A stretch of DNA of 64,000 nt. It comes from Vineibacter terrae. GTDB lineage: Bacteria > Pseudomonadota > Alphaproteobacteria > Reyranellales > Reyranellaceae. The notes beneath the pieces are model-generated. The model searched no databases and was not told where the DNA came from. It was given only the letters and a program-made list of their open reading frames with translations. Shown here one piece after another: positions 3,249 to 10,629 of this stretch (positions within the stretch are counted from its first letter, which is position 1; the number at the start of each line of letters is the position of its first letter). Location: contig NZ_VDUZ01000011.1 in the NCBI RefSeq assembly GCF_008039615.1, positions 62,001 to 126,000 on the forward strand. Reading direction: 5' to 3'. Made by a program: the position numbers and the translations under genes.

Positions 3249-4634
3249 ATGACCGGCCGCGCTGAAGACCTGCCGCCCGGCACATCGTTTCTCACGGTGC
3301 GCGGACGCCGCCACGGCCGTGTCATGGAATTGTTGGGGGCCGGCGGCCAGGGCGCCGTCTACACCGTCGACATCGACGGCTCGCGCTTTGCCCTGAAGTG
3401 GTATCACGACAGCATCGTCAAGGTTGACAAGACGCTGCGCGCGCGGCTGTCGCGCGCGATCGGCGTCGGGCCGCCCACCGACCGCTTCCTGTGGCCGATC
3501 GACCTGGTCGAGGTCGCCAACAGCGGCAGCTTCGGCTACGTGATGCCGTTGCGTCAGTCGGAATATGCCGGCATGCGCGGCCTGATCGCGCGGCCGCCCA
3601 ACCGCCTGGAGCTGCCGCTGGCCAAGCGCGTGATGGTCTGCCACAGCGTGGCGCACAATTTCCTGGAGCTGCATGCGCGTGGCTTCTGCTACCAGGACAT
3701 CAACTTCGGCAACATCTTCCTCAATCCCAACAGCGGCGATGTCGTCATCTGCGACAACGACAACGTCGATGTCGACGGCATGGACGCCTCGGTGTTCGGC
3801 ACCCGCAAGTTCATGGCGCCGGAAGTGGTGATGCGCCGCGCGCTGCCCAGCACCAAGACCGACCTGTTCTCGATGGCGGTGCTGTTCTTCTACATCCTGC
3901 ACGGCTGGCACCCGCTCGACGGCCGCCGCGAGGCCGAGATCCAGATCATGGATTCGTCGGCCGAGGTGCACCTGTACGGCAGCCATCCGGTGTTCCTGTT
4001 CGATCCCACCGACCCCGCCAACGGTCCGGTGCAGGGCTTCCACGAGCCGATCGTGGCGCGCTGGAACTCGCTGACGCCGGCGTTGCGCACGTTGCTCGTG
4101 CGCTCCTTCACGATCGGCCTGCGCCAGCCCGGCGAGCGCATCCTGGAGCCGGAATGGCGTGGCGCCTTCGCGCGCATGGTCGATGCCATCATCCCGTGCC
4201 GCGCCTGCGGCTTCGAGCAGTCGCTCCATCTGGAAGCCGGCGGCCAGTCCCTGGCGCCGCACGCCTGCGTCGCCTGCGGCGCGCCGCTGGTCAAGCCGCC
4301 GGTCCTGCTGTTCGGGCGCGACGTCGTGACGTTGGCGCCGGGCGGCCGCATCGCGCTGCGCCATCTCGATCCCGACCGGTCGCTGGATTTCACCAGCCAT
4401 GGCGGCGTCATCGAGGCGCATCCCGAGCGGCCCAATATCTGGGGCTTGCGCAACCTGACCAACACGGCGTGGCGGGCGACCCTGCCCGATGCCGGCGCGG
4501 TGACCGTGGAGCCGGGCCGGGCCGTGCGCATCATGCACGGTGCCGTCATTGATTTCGGCCGTCGCACGGGGCGTCTTCTTGCCGTTGCCGCGGCGCCGGC
4601 CGCGCCGAGGCAACCGCAATGGCAGACACGATGA
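3249..4634 (+). CDS. Ser/Thr protein kinase with zinc ribbon and FHA-like C-terminus (YegI-like)
   Basis: A 461-residue eukaryotic-type kinase. The glycine loop is GAGGQGAVY (residues 30-38) and the ATP-anchoring lysine is K50 in ALKWY. The catalytic loop reads YQDINFGN, with D150 and N155. The metal-binding DFG is replaced by D169-N-D, and FMAPEVV marks the activation segment. Four cysteines (C317, C320, C340, C343) form a zinc ribbon. The last ~100 residues resemble the C-terminal module of the PrsW-like protein at 5593. No membrane segment is present, so it is cytoplasmic. It is the first gene of a one-direction cluster and overlaps the phosphatase gene by 16 bp. An in-frame GTG at 3219 is an alternative start. 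The kinase/PP2C/vWA set matches YegI/YegK/YegL; the substrate is unknown. Confidence 0.88.
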   Translation: MTGRAEDLPPGTSFLTVRGRRHGRVMELLGAGGQGAVYTVDIDGSRFALKWYHDSIVKVDKTLRARLSRAIGVGPPTDRFLWPIDLVEVANSGSFGYVMPLRQSEYAGMRGLIARPPNRLELPLAKRVMVCHSVAHNFLELHARGFCYQDINFGNIFLNPNSGDVVICDNDNVDVDGMDASVFGTRKFMAPEVVMRRALPSTKTDLFSMAVLFFYILHGWHPLDGRREAEIQIMDSSAEVHLYGSHPVFLFDPTDPANGPVQGFHEPIVARWNSLTPALRTLLVRSFTIGLRQPGERILEPEWRGAFARMVDAIIPCRACGFEQSLHLEAGGQSLAPHACVACGAPLVKPPVLLFGRDVVTLAPGGRIALRHLDPDRSLDFTSHGGVIEAHPERPNIWGLRNLTNTAWRATLPDAGAVTVEPGRAVRIMHGAVIDFGRRTGRLLAVAAAPAAPRQPQWQTR

Positions 4635-5503
4635 TGGTCAACGGCACAGCGTGGTCGCTGGGCGGCGCCTCGGTGCGCGGCGCTGCGCATGTCCGGCGCG
4701 GCCAGCCCAACCAGGACGCCGTGGGCTGGGTACCGCCGGTCGCCGGCGCCGAGGTGACCGGCGCGTTCGCCGCCGCCGTTTCCGACGGGCATGGCGGCGC
4801 GGCCTACTACAGGTCGGAAGTCGGCGCGCGGCTGGCGGTCGAGGTCGCCAAGGCGGCCCTGGGCCGGTTCCTGGAGGCGCCGCTGCCGTCCGACGATGCC
4901 GGTCCGCTCGTGGCCGAGATCCTGGCGACGTGGCGGCAGGCGGTGATGCATGACCTGGCCGGCAATCCGGTCGAGAGCGACTGGGTCGAGTCGGAGCAGG
5001 AGAAGCTGCTGCCCTACGGCGCCACCCTCGCCGCCGTCGCCATCCGGCCGGACTGGCTGATGGCGCTGCAGATCGGCGACGGCGATATGCTGTTCGGCTA
5101 TCCGGACGGCCGGGTCGAGCGGCCGCTGCCCAACGACGAGGGGCTGTTCGGCGAGCAGACCTATTCGCTGTGCCTGGACAACGCCGCCGAGCGCTTTCGC
5201 GTGCGCACCCGGCGGCGGATCGAGGGCCAGCCCTGGCCCGATTTCGTCATGCTGTCGACCGACGGCGTCTCGAAATCCTTCGCCGACGAGAGGACCTTTC
5301 TGTCGATCGCGCGTGACTATCGCACGTCGGTGCGCAAGATAGGTCTGCGCGGCGTGCTCGACCAGCTTGAGAAATGGCTGAGCGACGTCTCGCACCGGGG
5401 CAGCGGCGACGATGTGACCTTGTGCCTGGCGGTCGGCGCGCCGTCAGCGGCCCCCGCCGCTGCGGCGCCAGCCGAGGAGCGGGCGCCGGAGACATCCGTG
5501 TGA
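4619..5503 (+). CDS. PP2C-family Ser/Thr phosphatase (YegK-like)
   Basis: A 294-residue metal-dependent phosphatase that most likely removes phosphate from targets of the kinase encoded immediately upstream. PP2C motifs are in order: NQDA (D33), VSDGHGG (D56), QIGDGDML (residues 151-158), LSTDGVSKSF (D215) and GSGDDVT (D264/D265). These supply the aspartates expected for the dimetal centre. There is no signal peptide or membrane span. The 16-bp overlap with the kinase gene implies translational coupling and matched expression. The last ~25 residues are a disordered Ala/Pro/Glu tail. Confidence 0.92.
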   Translation: MADTMMVNGTAWSLGGASVRGAAHVRRGQPNQDAVGWVPPVAGAEVTGAFAAAVSDGHGGAAYYRSEVGARLAVEVAKAALGRFLEAPLPSDDAGPLVAEILATWRQAVMHDLAGNPVESDWVESEQEKLLPYGATLAAVAIRPDWLMALQIGDGDMLFGYPDGRVERPLPNDEGLFGEQTYSLCLDNAAERFRVRTRRRIEGQPWPDFVMLSTDGVSKSFADERTFLSIARDYRTSVRKIGLRGVLDQLEKWLSDVSHRGSGDDVTLCLAVGAPSAAPAAAAPAEERAPETSV

Positions 5504-5592
5504 GGCTGGGGCCGCACGGGAGGCCGCGCGGCGTCGACCGCCGGCTGGCGACAAGCGCTGGTCGCAAGACCACGGGGAGATGAGGGTACAGA

Positions 5593-7197
5593 ATGGCCAA
5601 CCAAATGCCGCCGGTCCCGCGGGATCACGACGAGGCGTCGTTCTCCGAAATCGTGCCGATCCGGTCGGGCAAGATCAGCCTGTTCAAGAGCCCGCTGTTC
5701 ATCTTCGGGATCGTGACGGCGATCGCGACCGTGCTGCTGTTCGGCCTGATGCAGGGCCTGATGAACGCGCCGACGCCGCAGGAGCGCTACGGCGTGTTCC
5801 GGTCGCTGACCATGGTGATCACGGCCTACCTGCTGCTGCTCACCCTGTTCGCGATCTTCCTGTACTCCCGCACCGATCGCAAGATCTGGTACTTCGCGTT
5901 TCCCGTCGTGGTGATCTGCATCCTGCTGACGCCGCCGTTCCTGCGCCTGTTCTTCTTCGTCTTCCGCGAGATGCTGCCGGGCGGCTCCAACCTCACCGGC
6001 TCGCCGATCTTCTTCAACGCCTTCATCGGCATGTTCTTCGGCGCCGGGCTGATGGAAGAGCTGATGAAGGCGGTCGCCGTGCTGTTCGGCGCCTCGCTGA
6101 CGATCTTCGCCGCGCGCATGCGCTCGGTCGTGCCGGGGACGCTCTACGACCTGCTGCGCGTGCGCGGTCCGCTCGACGGCATCCTGATGGGCGTCGCCGC
6201 CGGCGCCGGCTTCATCTTCATCGAGACCTGGGACCAGTACGTCCCCAACATCGTGGCCCAGGTCTTCAAGGCCACGAAGGGCAACGACCTGGGCGCGTTC
6301 GGGCTCGGCCTGATGCTGCTCTTCCCGCGCGTCATCAACGGGCTGGCCGGCCACATGGCCTATGCCGGCATCTTCGGCTACTTCATCGGGCTGGCCGTCG
6401 TGCGCCCCCGCAAGGCGCCGATGCTGCTGCTGATCGGCTGGCTGACCGCCGCGATCCTGCACGCGCTGTGGAACTCGGTCGGCACCATCTGGGGCGGGCT
6501 CAGCTATGTCGTGGCGGCGGCCACCGTCATCGTGCTGGTGGCCTGCCTGCTGAAGGCGCGCCAGCTCGAGGCCAGCATCTTCGGCCGCAGCGTCGAGACC
6601 TCAGGCTCGATCATCGTCGGCATGCCCGGCTCCGGCCAGGTGCCGGGAATGGCGCCGGCGCCGCAATGGGGTGGCCAGGCCGCGCCGCCGTCGCCGCCGC
6701 AATGGGGCGCCGCCGCGCCGCGGCCGGCCCAGTGGGGGGCGCCGGCCGGCGGCTTCCCGGGCGCGCCGCCGCCGGGCGGGTTCCCCGGCGCCATGCCGGG
6801 CGGTGCGCCGGGCGCCTATCCGGGCGCGCCGCCGCAGCAGCCCTACCCCTATCCGGCGTCGCAGGCGGCGACCACGCCGATGCAGCCTACCATGCCGGTC
6901 CAGGCCGCGCTGGCGCTGCACGTGGCCGGTGCCAACGTGCCGCTGACGCCCGGCGCGCGCATCGATCTCTCCATGATCCCGGCGCTGGGCGAGCGCGGCC
7001 GCGGCCTGGTCGGCGAGGTCTCGGTGCATCCGCGCAACCCCGGTGTCATCGGATTGAAGAACCTCGGCAACGCGACGTGGTATGCTCGGCTGCGCGACGG
7101 ATCGGTCCAGCCGGTCGAGCCGCAGCGCAATGTGCGCCTGGCGGGCGGGATCAGCATTGACTTCGGCGGCGGCATCCAGGGCGCCGTCGTCGGCTGA
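5593..7197 (+). CDS. PrsW-family intramembrane protease with FHA-like C-terminal module
   Basis: A 534-residue polytopic membrane protein. PrsW-family motifs are present: EE..K (E155, E156, K159), the GFIFIE motif (E211), a helix with H254, and H290..N294 in LHALWNS. PrsW-type glutamic proteases cut membrane-bound anti-sigma factors elsewhere. Unlike ordinary PrsW it carries a Pro/Gly-rich linker (residues ~345-430) containing repeated PQWG motifs, then a ~95-residue soluble module. That module shares the pattern GL+NL.N..W, V.P.R.V.L..G..IDFG with the kinase encoded at 3249. The gene lies 89 bp after the phosphatase gene in the same direction. Its substrate may be one of the two single-span proteins downstream; that is inference. 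Confidence 0.82.
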   Translation: MANQMPPVPRDHDEASFSEIVPIRSGKISLFKSPLFIFGIVTAIATVLLFGLMQGLMNAPTPQERYGVFRSLTMVITAYLLLLTLFAIFLYSRTDRKIWYFAFPVVVICILLTPPFLRLFFFVFREMLPGGSNLTGSPIFFNAFIGMFFGAGLMEELMKAVAVLFGASLTIFAARMRSVVPGTLYDLLRVRGPLDGILMGVAAGAGFIFIETWDQYVPNIVAQVFKATKGNDLGAFGLGLMLLFPRVINGLAGHMAYAGIFGYFIGLAVVRPRKAPMLLLIGWLTAAILHALWNSVGTIWGGLSYVVAAATVIVLVACLLKARQLEASIFGRSVETSGSIIVGMPGSGQVPGMAPAPQWGGQAAPPSPPQWGAAAPRPAQWGAPAGGFPGAPPPGGFPGAMPGGAPGAYPGAPPQQPYPYPASQAATTPMQPTMPVQAALALHVAGANVPLTPGARIDLSMIPALGERGRGLVGEVSVHPRNPGVIGLKNLGNATWYARLRDGSVQPVEPQRNVRLAGGISIDFGGGIQGAVVG

Positions 7198-7217
7198 GCG
7201 AAGGTGGCGGGGCAGTC

Positions 7218-7910
7218 ATGGCAGCGGAACTTCCGAGTCTCAGCACGACGCGCATGGCGCGGCGCCAGCTTCATGTGATCCTGGCGCTCGACTGCTCCGG
7301 CTCCATGACCGGCGACAAGATCGCGTCGCTGAACTACGCCATGCGCGCCGCCATCCCGGAGATGCGCGCCGCGGCTGACGACAATCCGGAAACCGACGTG
7401 CTGATCCGCGTGCTGCGCTTCTCGTCGCGCGCCGAATGGCACCTCGCGGTGCCGACGCCGGTGGCCCAGTTCGAATGGCAGGATGTCGCCGCCGGCGGCG
7501 AGACCAGCATGGGCGAGGCCTTGGCCATGATTGCCGATGTCATGGGGCCGGAGCGCATGCCCGGACGCCAGCTGCCGCCGGTGCTGGTGCTGGTCTCGGA
7601 CGGCCAGCCTTCGGACGATTTCGAGATCGGGCTGAAGCGGCTGTTCGATTCGCCCTATGGCAGCCGCGCGCTGCGGGTGGCGATCGCAATCGGCAGCGAC
7701 GCCGACTACGAAGTCCTCGAGCGCTTCATTGCGCACCCTGAGTTCAAGCCGTTGCGGGCCAACAACGCGCAAGATTTGGTGAATCGCATCAAATGGGCGA
7801 CCACGGCGCCTGTGAAGTCGGTGTCATCGCCCAGCAATGCCCCCGATCCGGTGACCCAGCTCGCGCTCGATGCCGACCGTCAGCGGCGGTCGAGCGACAT
7901 GGTGTGGTGA
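7218..7910 (+). CDS. TerY/YegL-like vWA domain protein
   Basis: A 230-residue cytoplasmic von Willebrand factor A protein. A complete metal-ion-dependent adhesion site is visible: DCSGSM (D25, S27, S29), T96 in GGETSMGEAL and D128 in VSDGQPSDD. Length and the early position of the MIDAS motif match TerY/YegL. In the TerY-P triad the vWA protein is found with a kinase and a PP2C phosphatase, which is exactly the context here. It probably acts as a metal-dependent scaffold. The ~45 residues after the domain are Ser/Pro-rich and may be a flexible, phosphorylatable tail (inference). The gene starts 20 bp after the PrsW-like gene. Confidence 0.9.
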   Translation: MAAELPSLSTTRMARRQLHVILALDCSGSMTGDKIASLNYAMRAAIPEMRAAADDNPETDVLIRVLRFSSRAEWHLAVPTPVAQFEWQDVAAGGETSMGEALAMIADVMGPERMPGRQLPPVLVLVSDGQPSDDFEIGLKRLFDSPYGSRALRVAIAIGSDADYEVLERFIAHPEFKPLRANNAQDLVNRIKWATTAPVKSVSSPSNAPDPVTQLALDADRQRRSSDMVW

Positions 7911-7959
7911 CCGGGTCGGATGCCGTGCGCGGCAGCGCGATCCAACGGGGGAGAGCGTG

Positions 7960-9048
7960 ATGTTTCCTGACGACGACCGCGTCGTGGCGTTGTTTGCCGA
8001 GGCGCGGCGCAAGTTCGGCGACGACATCCTGCGCGACCCCCGCCGCAGCGTGCCGCTGCTGGCCGACCAGGCGCCTGAGCTGCGCGACACCATCAAGGCC
8101 GTGGCCGATGCGATCGGTGTCGGGGCGGCGCAGCGTCTGCGCGTTGCCGGCGACCAGGGGGCGGAGTTTCACCGCCTGGCGGCGGAGGTCGCGGGCCGCG
8201 CCGGCGTGGCGTTGCCGGATGCGATGGCCGGTGTGCGTATCGCGGCCCGGCTTGGGGGTGCCCCCGCCGGACCGGCTGCAGCGGCGGCGCCGCAGGAGCG
8301 CAGCTGGGTAGGGGGCTCGACGGTGGCCGGTGGGCCGGCCCCCGGCGGGCAAGGCTACGGCGCACCCGGCCAAGGAGCGCCGGGCTATGGGGCGCCGGGC
8401 TATGGCGCCGGCGCCACGCCGCAGGAGTTCATGAAGGGCAAGTGGGGCGTCGCGGCCCTGGTCGGCGTCGGCATCCTGGTCGTGGTCGGCCTCTCGACCG
8501 GCAACGAAAAGCCGGCGCCGCAGCAGCCTCAGGCGCCGCAAGCCCCGCAGGCCCCTCAAGGCGGCGACCCGCCGCCCGGCCGCCCGCCGCAGGGCGGGCC
8601 GCCACCGGGCGGGCGGGCGCCGCCGCAATCGGCCGGACTGCCCATCATCGTGCCGCCGGGCGGCAACCAGCAGGTGCCGGCCATCGGGGTGCGCGAGTCG
8701 CAGCAGGCCTATGTGCTCGAGTTCGGCGCCTCGGCCGGCAACCAGATCTATCGCGTCATCGTTGGCGTCTCGAAGCAGGGATGGGGGGCCGGGTTCGTGG
8801 CCGTCGCCAGCCAGGGCGCCAACGAGCCCGAGAGCGTCTCGAAGGCGAGCCCGTTCCAGCTCACCAACCAGAACAACAACGCCATCCGCGTGCTGCAGCC
8901 GCAATGGGAGCGCGATGGCCTCAACATCGGCGCGATGTGCGTGGCCTTCGTGCAGTCCGGCGCTCGCGATGTGCAGCTGCGCGGCAGCAATGTCTGTGTG
9001 CTGGCAGACAACTGCAACCAGATGATCGGCTGCGGAATGGTGCAATGA
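7960..9048 (+). CDS. Single-span membrane protein with helical N-domain, Pro/Gly linker and Cys-rich C-terminal domain
   Basis: A 362-residue protein of unrecognised family. Order of parts: a helical N-terminal domain (residues 1-100) with the pattern DPRR..PLLAD..PELRD.I; a RSWVGGS motif at 114-120; a Gly/Tyr/Pro-rich linker; one hydrophobic span (~162-178); a Pro/Gln-rich stretch; then a ~145-residue domain with several cysteines near its end (the last at ..CGMVQ). The N-domain and SWVGG motif recur in the next protein, so the two are architectural paralogues with different output domains. I chose the ATG at 7960 because GGGGGAG precedes it; in-frame extension to 7870 would overlap the vWA gene. 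By position it belongs to the kinase/phosphatase/vWA system. Confidence 0.75.
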   Translation: MFPDDDRVVALFAEARRKFGDDILRDPRRSVPLLADQAPELRDTIKAVADAIGVGAAQRLRVAGDQGAEFHRLAAEVAGRAGVALPDAMAGVRIAARLGGAPAGPAAAAAPQERSWVGGSTVAGGPAPGGQGYGAPGQGAPGYGAPGYGAGATPQEFMKGKWGVAALVGVGILVVVGLSTGNEKPAPQQPQAPQAPQAPQGGDPPPGRPPQGGPPPGGRAPPQSAGLPIIVPPGGNQQVPAIGVRESQQAYVLEFGASAGNQIYRVIVGVSKQGWGAGFVAVASQGANEPESVSKASPFQLTNQNNNAIRVLQPQWERDGLNIGAMCVAFVQSGARDVQLRGSNVCVLADNCNQMIGCGMVQ

Positions 9049-9139
9049 ACCGTTGCCACGCAGGGGCATGGTGCGGAATATGTTCGTGATTTAGGCTCAA
9101 CCTCCGTACGGCTGGACCTCGCCGAGGTCAGAGGGGTAG

Positions 9140-10591
9140 ATGGCGGCTGACAGTTACGATGCGCTCGCGAAGGTTCTGCGCGAGCTGCCGGACAGATTCG
9201 GCGCGGCGGTGTTCTCAGATCGGCGGCGTGTCGTGTCGGTTCTGTCCGACCGGGTTCCCGAGGCACGGCGCGAGATCAAGGTCCTGGGCAGCGCCATCGA
9301 CGACGGCGTGTTCGACGCCCTGTCCAACGCGCGGCCCGAGCAGATCGGCCTCGAGATCGACCGGCTGGCGGCCCGTATCGAGACCAATCTGGGCATCCGC
9401 AGCGACATCGCCCTGCCGGTTGTGCGCGCCTGTGCCCACGGCCTGGGGCGTGGGCCGCTGCCGTCAGAGTACGGCATGGTCGCTCCGGTCCAGCCGGTAT
9501 CGATGCCACGCCAGCCGGACGGCTCCTGGGTGGGCGGCTCGGCGCCGGCGGGTGGGATGCCGCAAGCCGGCATGTATCCCGGTGGCACGCCATCGGCGCC
9601 CATTCCCCGCCAGCCGGACGGCTCCTGGGTGGGCGTGTCGACGCCGGTCGGGGCGCCACCGCAATACGGCGCGCCGCCGCCCCAATATCCGCCGCAGGGC
9701 TGGCCGTCGTCAGGGCCGGGAATGGCGCCGCCGCCGGGCGCGATGTATCCGGGCGCGCCGGTGGCGCCGGCCAAGAGCGGCGGCTGGGTGAAAGGGCTGC
9801 TGATCGGGATCGGGGCCATCGTCGGTACCCTGGTCGTGCTGTACATCATCGGTTCGATGATGGAGCCGTCGCCACCGCCGCCGGATCCGAAACCCCCGAC
9901 AAAGCCGACGGGGCCAGGGACCACCACGCCGAAGACGGGACCGACCGGGCCAACGGGACCGACCGGGCCGACTGGCCCCGGGACCACCTCGCCAAAGACG
10001 GCCCAACCGGGCACCGATCCCGTCACCAAGCCGGAGCGTGAGCCGACGACGCCACCATCGGGTCCGACCACCACGACGCCGCAGCAGCCGCCATCGTCGC
10101 CGCCATCATCACCGCCGTCGGGCTCATACGCCGAGGAGAGCGTCGATTTCGGCGTGGCGCCGCAGCGCACGTTGCAAAGCAATATCGGCAGCCCGACCCC
10201 GACCTCGATGCCGCCGGGCATCGGCCGCATCCTGTCGACCCAGGCGCTCGAGAACGAGATCCGCAAGGGCACGGACTTCCTGCTGGTCGACGTGCTGGAA
10301 AACCCGCATCCGCGCACCCTGGTCAAGGCGCGCTACATCCCGTACGGCGGCCGCGGCGGCAGCTTCACCGACCTGGCGCAGCAGCAACTCGCCAGCGAGC
10401 TGGCCAGCCTGACCAACAACCGGACCAACTATCCGATCGTGTTCTTTTGCGCCGGCGTGCGCTGCTGGGAGTCCTACAACGCCGTGCTGCGGGCCTACGA
10501 AGCCGGCTACCGCAATCTCTACTGGTATCGCGGCGGCATCGCGGCCTGGACCGCCGCCGGCCTGCAGACGCAGCCGCTGGGTAGCCGCTGA
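9140..10591 (+). CDS. Single-span membrane protein with shared N-domain, collagen-like stretch and rhodanese domain
   Basis: A 483-residue protein. Residues 1-105 match the N-domain of the preceding protein (RF then D.RR....L.D..PE.R.EI..L). Two copies of RQPDGSWVG follow (residues ~124-132 and 157-165). After a Pro-rich linker there is one hydrophobic span (~216-238), then a Pro/Thr-rich segment with four GPT triplets (residues 267-281), and a C-terminal rhodanese-like domain (~360-480). The rhodanese active loop is CAGVRCW with C437 and C442, resembling the CxxCW-type rhodaneses linked to PQQ-dependent catabolism. The domain could move sulfane sulfur or sense redox state. It is the last gene of the cluster, and the terminator at 10603 lies just beyond. 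Confidence 0.8.
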   Translation: MAADSYDALAKVLRELPDRFGAAVFSDRRRVVSVLSDRVPEARREIKVLGSAIDDGVFDALSNARPEQIGLEIDRLAARIETNLGIRSDIALPVVRACAHGLGRGPLPSEYGMVAPVQPVSMPRQPDGSWVGGSAPAGGMPQAGMYPGGTPSAPIPRQPDGSWVGVSTPVGAPPQYGAPPPQYPPQGWPSSGPGMAPPPGAMYPGAPVAPAKSGGWVKGLLIGIGAIVGTLVVLYIIGSMMEPSPPPPDPKPPTKPTGPGTTTPKTGPTGPTGPTGPTGPGTTSPKTAQPGTDPVTKPEREPTTPPSGPTTTTPQQPPSSPPSSPPSGSYAEESVDFGVAPQRTLQSNIGSPTPTSMPPGIGRILSTQALENEIRKGTDFLLVDVLENPHPRTLVKARYIPYGGRGGSFTDLAQQQLASELASLTNNRTNYPIVFFCAGVRCWESYNAVLRAYEAGYRNLYWYRGGIAAWTAAGLQTQPLGSR

Positions 10592-10602
10592 CGTCACGAA
10601 AA

Positions 10603-10629
10603 AGCCCCCGAGGGAGACCCTCGGGGGCT
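10603..10629 (-). terminator. Intrinsic terminator between convergent transcription units
   Basis: A perfect 12-bp stem (AGCCCCCGAGGG / CCCTCGGGGGCT) with a 3-nt loop. On the minus strand the stem is followed by a short T run (the AAAA at 10599-10602 on the plus strand), so it is a standard rho-independent terminator for the rplI operon. It may also stop the rhodanese gene from the other side. Confidence 0.85.

Follow-up and report, generated by a model that had tools for sequence, protein, structure and literature searches.

A TerY-P-type kinase/phosphatase/vWA trio in one operon with an FHA-fold PrsW protease and membrane proteins sharing the N-terminal adN domain

Vineibacter terrae (genome size, 8.76 Mb) harbors, in a 64,000-nucleotide stretch of contig NZ_VDUZ01000011.1 (positions 62,001 to 126,000 of the forward strand; the window), a six-gene operon at 3249-10591. 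All six genes are on the + strand and are separated by short gaps or overlaps, as judged from the open reading frames of the window. They encode a Ser/Thr kinase, a PP2C phosphatase, a PrsW-type intramembrane protease, a TerY-like vWA protein and two single-span membrane proteins, here called adaptors 1 and 2 (Table 1). The operon is real, rare and well conserved, is passed on as a unit in distant bacteria, and almost certainly encodes one system, the composition of which is secure. The mechanism is what we infer: a TerY-P-type phospho-switch would drive an FHA-fold PrsW protease that acts on exchangeable membrane proteins carrying a common N-terminal domain (adN), a reading to which we assign a probability of about 0.5.

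Three other genomes of the genus have the same six genes in identical order, as does a second genus of the family; in the latter the genes surrounding the set differ and two of the loci end at contig ends. The operon of the g5 genomes (g-numbers are our own labels, as are L-numbers for loci) is found without the PhzF, bL9 and FabD neighbors. The core order kinase-PP2C-PrsW-vWA is present in 17/17 complete loci, that is, those not cut by contig ends, from Alpha- and Gammaproteobacteria (Reyranellaceae, Caulobacter, Sphingomonadales, Xanthobacteraceae, Roseibium, Enterovirga and gammaproteobacterial metagenome-assembled genomes (MAGs)), and one to three adN proteins follow the core in 16 of them. 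The PrsW gene is duplicated in two loci (L037 and L047). As the order recurs in other genomes amid different surroundings, the association goes far beyond chance. The named loci were retrieved via PrsW and hence provide no test of co-occurrence, for which the kinase search is the unbiased test. Kinase matches above 600 bits were obtained in 8 of 75 genomes of the family, exactly those with PrsW; among 385 genomes of the class, the strong kinase matches and the PrsW matches fell in the same three genomes, and a further genome retrieved by the kinase alone (G689) also has an adjacent PrsW. A mirror-tree comparison shows correlated pairwise distances for the four core proteins (r = 0.72-0.83), with none of 2000 Mantel permutations reaching values as high.

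That this is an ordinary TerY-P triad with neighbors gathered by chance is therefore extremely improbable, the chance reading being already contradicted by the co-occurrence data. Triads lacking PrsW do exist, such as an ordinary one beside TerD/TerB-like genes (L055) and yegI/pphC/yegL of E. coli, but the gene order is conserved in distant bacteria, kinase and PrsW co-occur perfectly in the samples, and the FHA-fold module and the adN domain are each common to two members of the operon. Conserved order, co-occurrence and shared modules together rule out chance neighbors. An earlier note on this DNA had claimed six same-direction genes forming a single system, and had held that this idea would fail if triads routinely lacked PrsW and the adaptor genes. 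The six genes are all present as claimed, and the kinase-PrsW co-occurrence and the confinement of adN to the vicinity of these kinases place PrsW and the adaptor genes within one system; every sampled genome with a kinase of this clade has an adjacent PrsW, whereas distant PrsW-less triads do exist. A plasmid-borne element was also considered and rejected, as no PrsW match was obtained among 72,556 plasmids and the best plasmid relatives of the kinase belong to PrsW-less branches. The earlier note knew of no description of this exact gene set, and a literature search, the scope of which excludes subscription works, including Anantharaman et al. 2012, likewise found no paper describing it. The combination of the trio with PrsW, the recognition of the beta module as an FHA fold, and adN are thus new in that no earlier description of them was found.

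Judged from sequence, the kinase, PP2C and vWA proteins form a TerY-P triad as defined in PMC11090510. Each exceeds its Pfam cut-off (Pkinase, 51.6 bits; PP2C_2, 130.7 bits; VWA, 32.7 bits) and is homologous to its E. coli counterpart, the kinase to YegI (E = 5e-9), the phosphatase to PphC/YegK (E = 6e-8) and the vWA protein to YegL (E = 3e-8). The kinase displays the P-loop GAGGQG, K50, and the YQDINFGN and DND motifs. Most catalytic residues are invariant in an alignment of 12 diverse homologs, among them K50, D150, D169 and the glycines of the P-loop; N155 is substituted in L044 and L047. The metal-site aspartates of the phosphatase (D33, D56, D154, D215 and D264/D265) are invariant among its homologs, and the metal-ion-dependent adhesion site (MIDAS) of the vWA protein (D25, S27, S29, T96, D128) is complete and invariant in a 12-sequence alignment. 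In the same alignment, vWA proteins of the PrsW branch invariably have Trp as their last residue, preceded by a hydrophobic one (...SDMVW in the window), an ending also found in the Methylomonas relative (DVW) and not in YegL. Tellurite or restriction genes, which are frequent but not obligatory beside TerY-P triads, were not found adjoining the operon.

The PrsW protein scores 89.7 bits against Pfam PrsW (cut-off, 23.5). The PrsW family is characterized by EExxK, a His in transmembrane helix 5, and HxxxD (PMC4602095). Among 14 homologs E155E156xxK159, H254 and H290xxxN294 are invariant, the last presenting HxxxN in place of HxxxD, a form also seen in type II CAAX proteases (PMC4602095). A Pro-rich linker precedes a C-terminal module that resembles the C-terminus of the kinase (41% over 78 residues, E = 2e-11). 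The AlphaFold model of the PrsW module has a mean predicted confidence (pLDDT) of 96.4, and the 46 best PDB matches to it all come from FHA domains (Z up to 9.9, root-mean-square deviation 2.1, 84 residues), which identifies the C-terminal module of both proteins as an FHA fold. Pfam FHA does not match this module, and Pfam and PDB-sequence searches with it yielded nothing significant. An FHA-fused PrsW has previously been proposed to be a signaling peptidase (Zhang et al. 2012, PMC3482391). In Leptolyngbyaceae-type cyanobacteria (L048, L049, L050), a canonical FHA-PrsW fusion lies beside a peptide deformylase gene.

The N-termini of the two adaptors are similar (34% over 87 residues, E = 7e-8), and this common domain is what we call adN. 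It is all-helical in the AlphaFold model (residues 1-99, pLDDT about 90), and Pfam and PDB-sequence searches with it found nothing significant. Beyond adN, each adaptor continues with a linker and one transmembrane helix, then a stretch rich in Pro or Gly, and ends in a C-terminal domain that varies. Lys or Arg usually stands just before the helix, an order of basic residue and helix which suggests an N-in, C-out orientation, as in predicted type II membrane proteins. The motif W-x-G-x-[ST] is present in 16 of 19 adaptor linkers (0.56 expected from shuffling), always between adN and the transmembrane helix, and this linker motif (W-x-G-x-S) and the Trp end of the vWA protein are candidate docking sites. 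The C-terminal heads vary, being a rhodanese, a four-Cys beta domain or, in gammaproteobacteria and Roseibium, an unrelated small domain. Adaptor 1 has no Pfam match, and a fold search with the adaptor 1 model as a whole yielded nothing convincing in the PDB for the C-terminal beta domain (the highest Z, 6.3, is within the range of common arrangements). The rhodanese of adaptor 2 scores 28.8 bits (Pfam cut-off, 22.2); wherever the domain is present, the catalytic Cys C437 is invariant and the second Cys is kept. Assignment of adaptor 2 to the PQQ-associated CXXCW proteins (TIGR03865) was rejected at 69.2 bits against a curated cut-off of 128.05. The C-terminal domains also recur without a detected adN: a rhodanese upstream of the kinase (L039:323-1078) and a four-Cys beta domain between adaptors (L040:13266-14114). 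These scores and intact sites bear out the YegI/YegK/YegL triad, the PrsW-type protease, the pair of single-span proteins, of which one has a rhodanese end, and the modules shared between members that the earlier note had read from the DNA. The sulfur or redox output it had proposed is unsupported as a general rule, rhodanese being one of several exchangeable heads and predicted to be extracytoplasmic.

Kinases with the FHA-fold module are also found in a sister group, which comprises kinases of the g340 genomes (313-336 bits, full length) and plasmid kinases of Methylomonas (36.6% identity) and Prevotella (33.4%). Where the contig is long enough vWA and PP2C genes lie nearby, and PrsW is absent. 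In g340 and Methylomonas these kinases are accompanied by adN proteins with no clear transmembrane helix, in which the domain fused to adN is FGE-sulfatase-type, Sel1, Tim44-like, Clp_N or a ClpX zinc finger. Among 200 genomes of the phylum, adN was found only in the window genome and in five g340 genomes. The kinase was likewise retrieved from four of these five, and adN adjoins it directly wherever the DNA was read; a search of viral contigs with the Methylomonas adN found no relative. Since adN is found only beside these kinases, and on varied partners, it is a tag specific to the system and carried by partners that can be interchanged. Sequence comparison further indicates that PrsW is a clade-specific addition and that adN-tagged outputs are more widespread. 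On the Methylomonas plasmid CP157007 (L060:12834-17370), five tandem genes combine a near-identical adN with different partner domains (Sel1, one unassigned domain, Tim44-like, Clp_N and ClpX zinc finger). The Prevotella plasmid pE2-28 (L061:9570-21182) carries a run of TerY_C-like, kinase, vWA, PP2C, FGE-sulfatase, UvrD-like helicase/exonuclease and FtsK genes, resembling the FtsK-linked TerY-P islands of the literature, and one g340 genome has a methyl-accepting chemotaxis receptor gene between vWA and PP2C (L056:4920-6632).

This variety of partners bears on a rather unlikely reading, in which adN would resemble the effector-associated domains (EADs) of bacterial conflict systems and bring exchangeable domains, whether for recognition or as effectors, to a core regulated by phosphorylation, with membrane versions watching the envelope and PrsW triggering the response. 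The EAD trait of a small non-catalytic domain with diverse partners (rhodanese, four-Cys beta and others) in several copies per locus fits adN, and the sister fusions and the five-copy Methylomonas array speak for such a conflict or immunity role. So do an nSTAND1-WD40 gene that immediately precedes the kinase in Enterovirga, a TIR-WD40 gene, sub-threshold in Pfam, immediately after the adaptor in a Xanthobacteraceae MAG, the TerY-P modules of CoCoNuT systems (PMC11090510), and a related trio of kinase-Zn ribbon-beta domain, PP2C and vWA proteins near GAP1-N2 GTPase conflict systems in Actinobacteria, as described by Kaur et al. 2020 (PMC7159879). However, unlike most EADs, adN is absent from the core components, no copy being found on the kinase, PP2C, vWA or PrsW protein. 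The window operon has no nuclease, nucleotide-cyclase or toxin domain and adjoins housekeeping genes common to other g1 genomes; a known defense system was rejected, PADLOC having returned just weak generic kinase matches. In Enterovirga (L047:1104-5978 and L047:12181-14067) only 8 nt lie between the end of the nSTAND1-WD40 gene and the kinase gene, the two PrsW copies are in tandem, and a RyR/TrkA-like gene follows the vWA gene. In the Xanthobacteraceae MAG the TIR-like WD40 protein (below the Pfam threshold) is encoded directly after the adaptor on the same strand (L044:13431-16595).

In the preferred reading (a phospho-switch acting through PrsW), adN and the linker motif would be on the cytoplasmic side, docked to a kinase/PP2C/vWA complex, and the C-terminal domains would be periplasmic heads serving as sensors or outputs. 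Kinase and phosphatase would set the phosphorylation state of the adaptor linker or of the PrsW tails, and the FHA-fold modules may gather kinase and PrsW into the same complex. Once the kinase/PP2C/vWA switch flips, PrsW would, as demand arises, cut the adaptors close to the membrane, which would free adN or the outer head or else turn the adaptor off; the protease would be required only where outputs are membrane-tethered. We lean slightly towards adN proteins being PrsW substrates, and consider gating of this cleavage by the kinase and phosphatase to be possible, at a little under even odds. More tentatively, and as the less probable outcome, adN may be a recruitment domain not described before and the defining part of a family of TerY-P-derived signaling or defense systems, in one branch of which outputs became membrane-bound and an FHA-fold PrsW was acquired that cleaves them under kinase/phosphatase/vWA control.

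Several points weigh against this reading. Phosphorylation, binding and cleavage in the operon are steps that we infer from the encoded proteins, and the adaptor topology is based solely on hydropathy and Lys/Arg placement. The canonical FHA signature (GR, SxxH, NG) is not conserved in the FHA-fold module, and when profiles were compared it had no match to the canonical FHA found in cyanobacterial PrsW proteins; classical phosphothreonine binding by the module is thus doubtful. The Enterovirga locus L047 encodes the kinase, PP2C, two PrsW and the vWA protein, with no detectable adN in the fetched DNA. PrsW-containing loci have membrane-anchored adN proteins and the PrsW-less sister loci have none with a clear transmembrane helix, but PrsW and membrane-anchored outputs may trace to one evolutionary transition, so that this correlation is suggestive only.

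PrsW processing of adN proteins would also underlie an improbable alternative, in which the outer C-terminal domains are shed, as has been proposed for PrsW-dependent polymorphic toxins, and the phospho-trio times their release or export. The constant N-terminus and the C-terminus that varies beyond the transmembrane helix and Pro-rich stalk suit this idea, and PrsW-dependent release was proposed in PMC3482391; that paper, however, sets signaling PrsW proteins (FHA, Zn ribbon) apart from toxin PrsW proteins. Here PrsW and cargo are not fused, and the cargo (rhodanese, small beta domains) includes no toxin family, nor were immunity genes noted. A PrsW-dependent polymorphic toxin as such was rejected, the PrsW protein bearing an FHA-fold module and not a C-terminal toxin domain.

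The operon is neighbored by a PhzF-like gene and the ribosomal bL9 gene, and among the nearest named relatives at this locus are Reyranella sp. CPCC 100927 and a MAG from the Reyranellaceae. Searches of the operon found no sigma-70-like promoter and no embedded RNA families. The strong hairpin that follows adaptor 2 (Table 1) is terminator-like on the - strand, and its symmetric stem could serve the six-gene operon too.

Table 1. Genes, domains and motifs of the operon, in window coordinates.
Feature	Position (nt)	Strand	Basis
Ser/Thr kinase with C-terminal Zn ribbon and FHA-fold module, 461 aa	3249-4634	+	Pfam Pkinase, YegI homology
Kinase Zn ribbon (C317, C320, C340, C343)	4197-4277	+	4/4 Cys invariant, 12 diverse homologs
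Kinase FHA-fold module (residues 345-445)	4281-4583	+	Similarity to PrsW C-terminus
PP2C phosphatase, 294 aa	4619-5503	+	Pfam PP2C_2, PphC homology
PrsW-type intramembrane protease, 534 aa	5593-7197	+	Pfam PrsW
PrsW FHA-fold module (residues 440-534)	6910-7194	+	AlphaFold, PDB comparison
TerY-like vWA protein, 230 aa	7218-7910	+	Pfam VWA, YegL homology
Adaptor 1, single-span, 362 aa	7960-9048	+	Start ATG 7960 agrees with homologs
Adaptor 1 adN domain	7960-8259	+	Similarity to adaptor 2
Adaptor 1 WVGGS motif	8305-8319	+	W-x-G-x-S linker motif
Adaptor 1 transmembrane helix, Lys ahead, Pro-rich stretch beyond	8446-8502	+	
Adaptor 1 C-terminal beta domain, four largely conserved Cys	8629-9045	+	
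Adaptor 2, single-span, rhodanese at C-terminus, 483 aa	9140-10591	+	Pfam Rhodanese
Adaptor 2 adN domain	9140-9475	+	Similarity to adaptor 1
Adaptor 2, two WVG[GV]S motifs	9527-9541, 9626-9640	+	
Adaptor 2 transmembrane helix, Pro/Thr-rich stretch beyond	9794-9850	+	
Adaptor 2 rhodanese domain (C437 and C442-W443)	10355-10555	+	Pfam
12-bp G+C-rich hairpin between adaptor 2 and convergent bL9 gene	10603-10629	not assigned	

TerY-P triads are widespread, and to our knowledge few of their substrates have been described. The operon names concrete candidates, the adN proteins with their W-x-G-x-S motif and a PrsW protein with the FHA-fold module of the kinase, and makes the question of what the triad acts on directly testable. 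It links Hanks-type kinase/PP2C signaling to intramembrane proteolysis in one compact unit, and shows that PrsW can be genetically tied to specific membrane partners even though the six genes include no sigma/anti-sigma pair. If the proposed mechanism is true, the adN-PrsW branch would give bacteria a parallel to phospho-gated receptor proteolysis, its ectodomains being plug-in parts.

Compared with known TerY-P triads (YegI/PphC/YegL and the CoCoNuT-associated triads), the three components are homologous and the kinase likewise has a C-terminal Zn ribbon; the differences are the additional kinase FHA-fold domain common to the PrsW protease, the added adN membrane proteins, and the lack of adjoining tellurite/restriction genes. 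The actinobacterial trio of PMC7159879 similarly consists of a kinase with a Zn ribbon and a beta-rich domain, an adjacent PP2C and a standalone vWA protein, but it accompanies GTPases; the text of that paper makes no mention of PrsW, and where the trio is discussed the beta domain is not termed FHA-like. With the EADs (Kaur et al. 2020, 2021) adN shares the character of a small helical non-catalytic tag on diverse partners in multiple copies per locus; it differs in that 17 adN members gave no EAD-named Pfam match and in being absent from a core that is a kinase/PP2C/vWA trio rather than MoxR, STAND or GTPase. The FHA-PrsW signaling peptidases (PMC3482391 and the cyanobacterial L048-L050) also fuse PrsW to an FHA-fold domain, but in the closest cyanobacterial relatives the FHA is canonical and N-terminal with no triad nearby, whereas here the module is C-terminal, divergent and also present on the kinase. 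Finally, as in the PrsW-RsiW proteolysis of B. subtilis, the substrates of PrsW would be membrane proteins that have a single span and an N-domain in the cytoplasm, but the adN domain matches no known family, and in place of a sigma/anti-sigma pair the six genes have a kinase trio attached.

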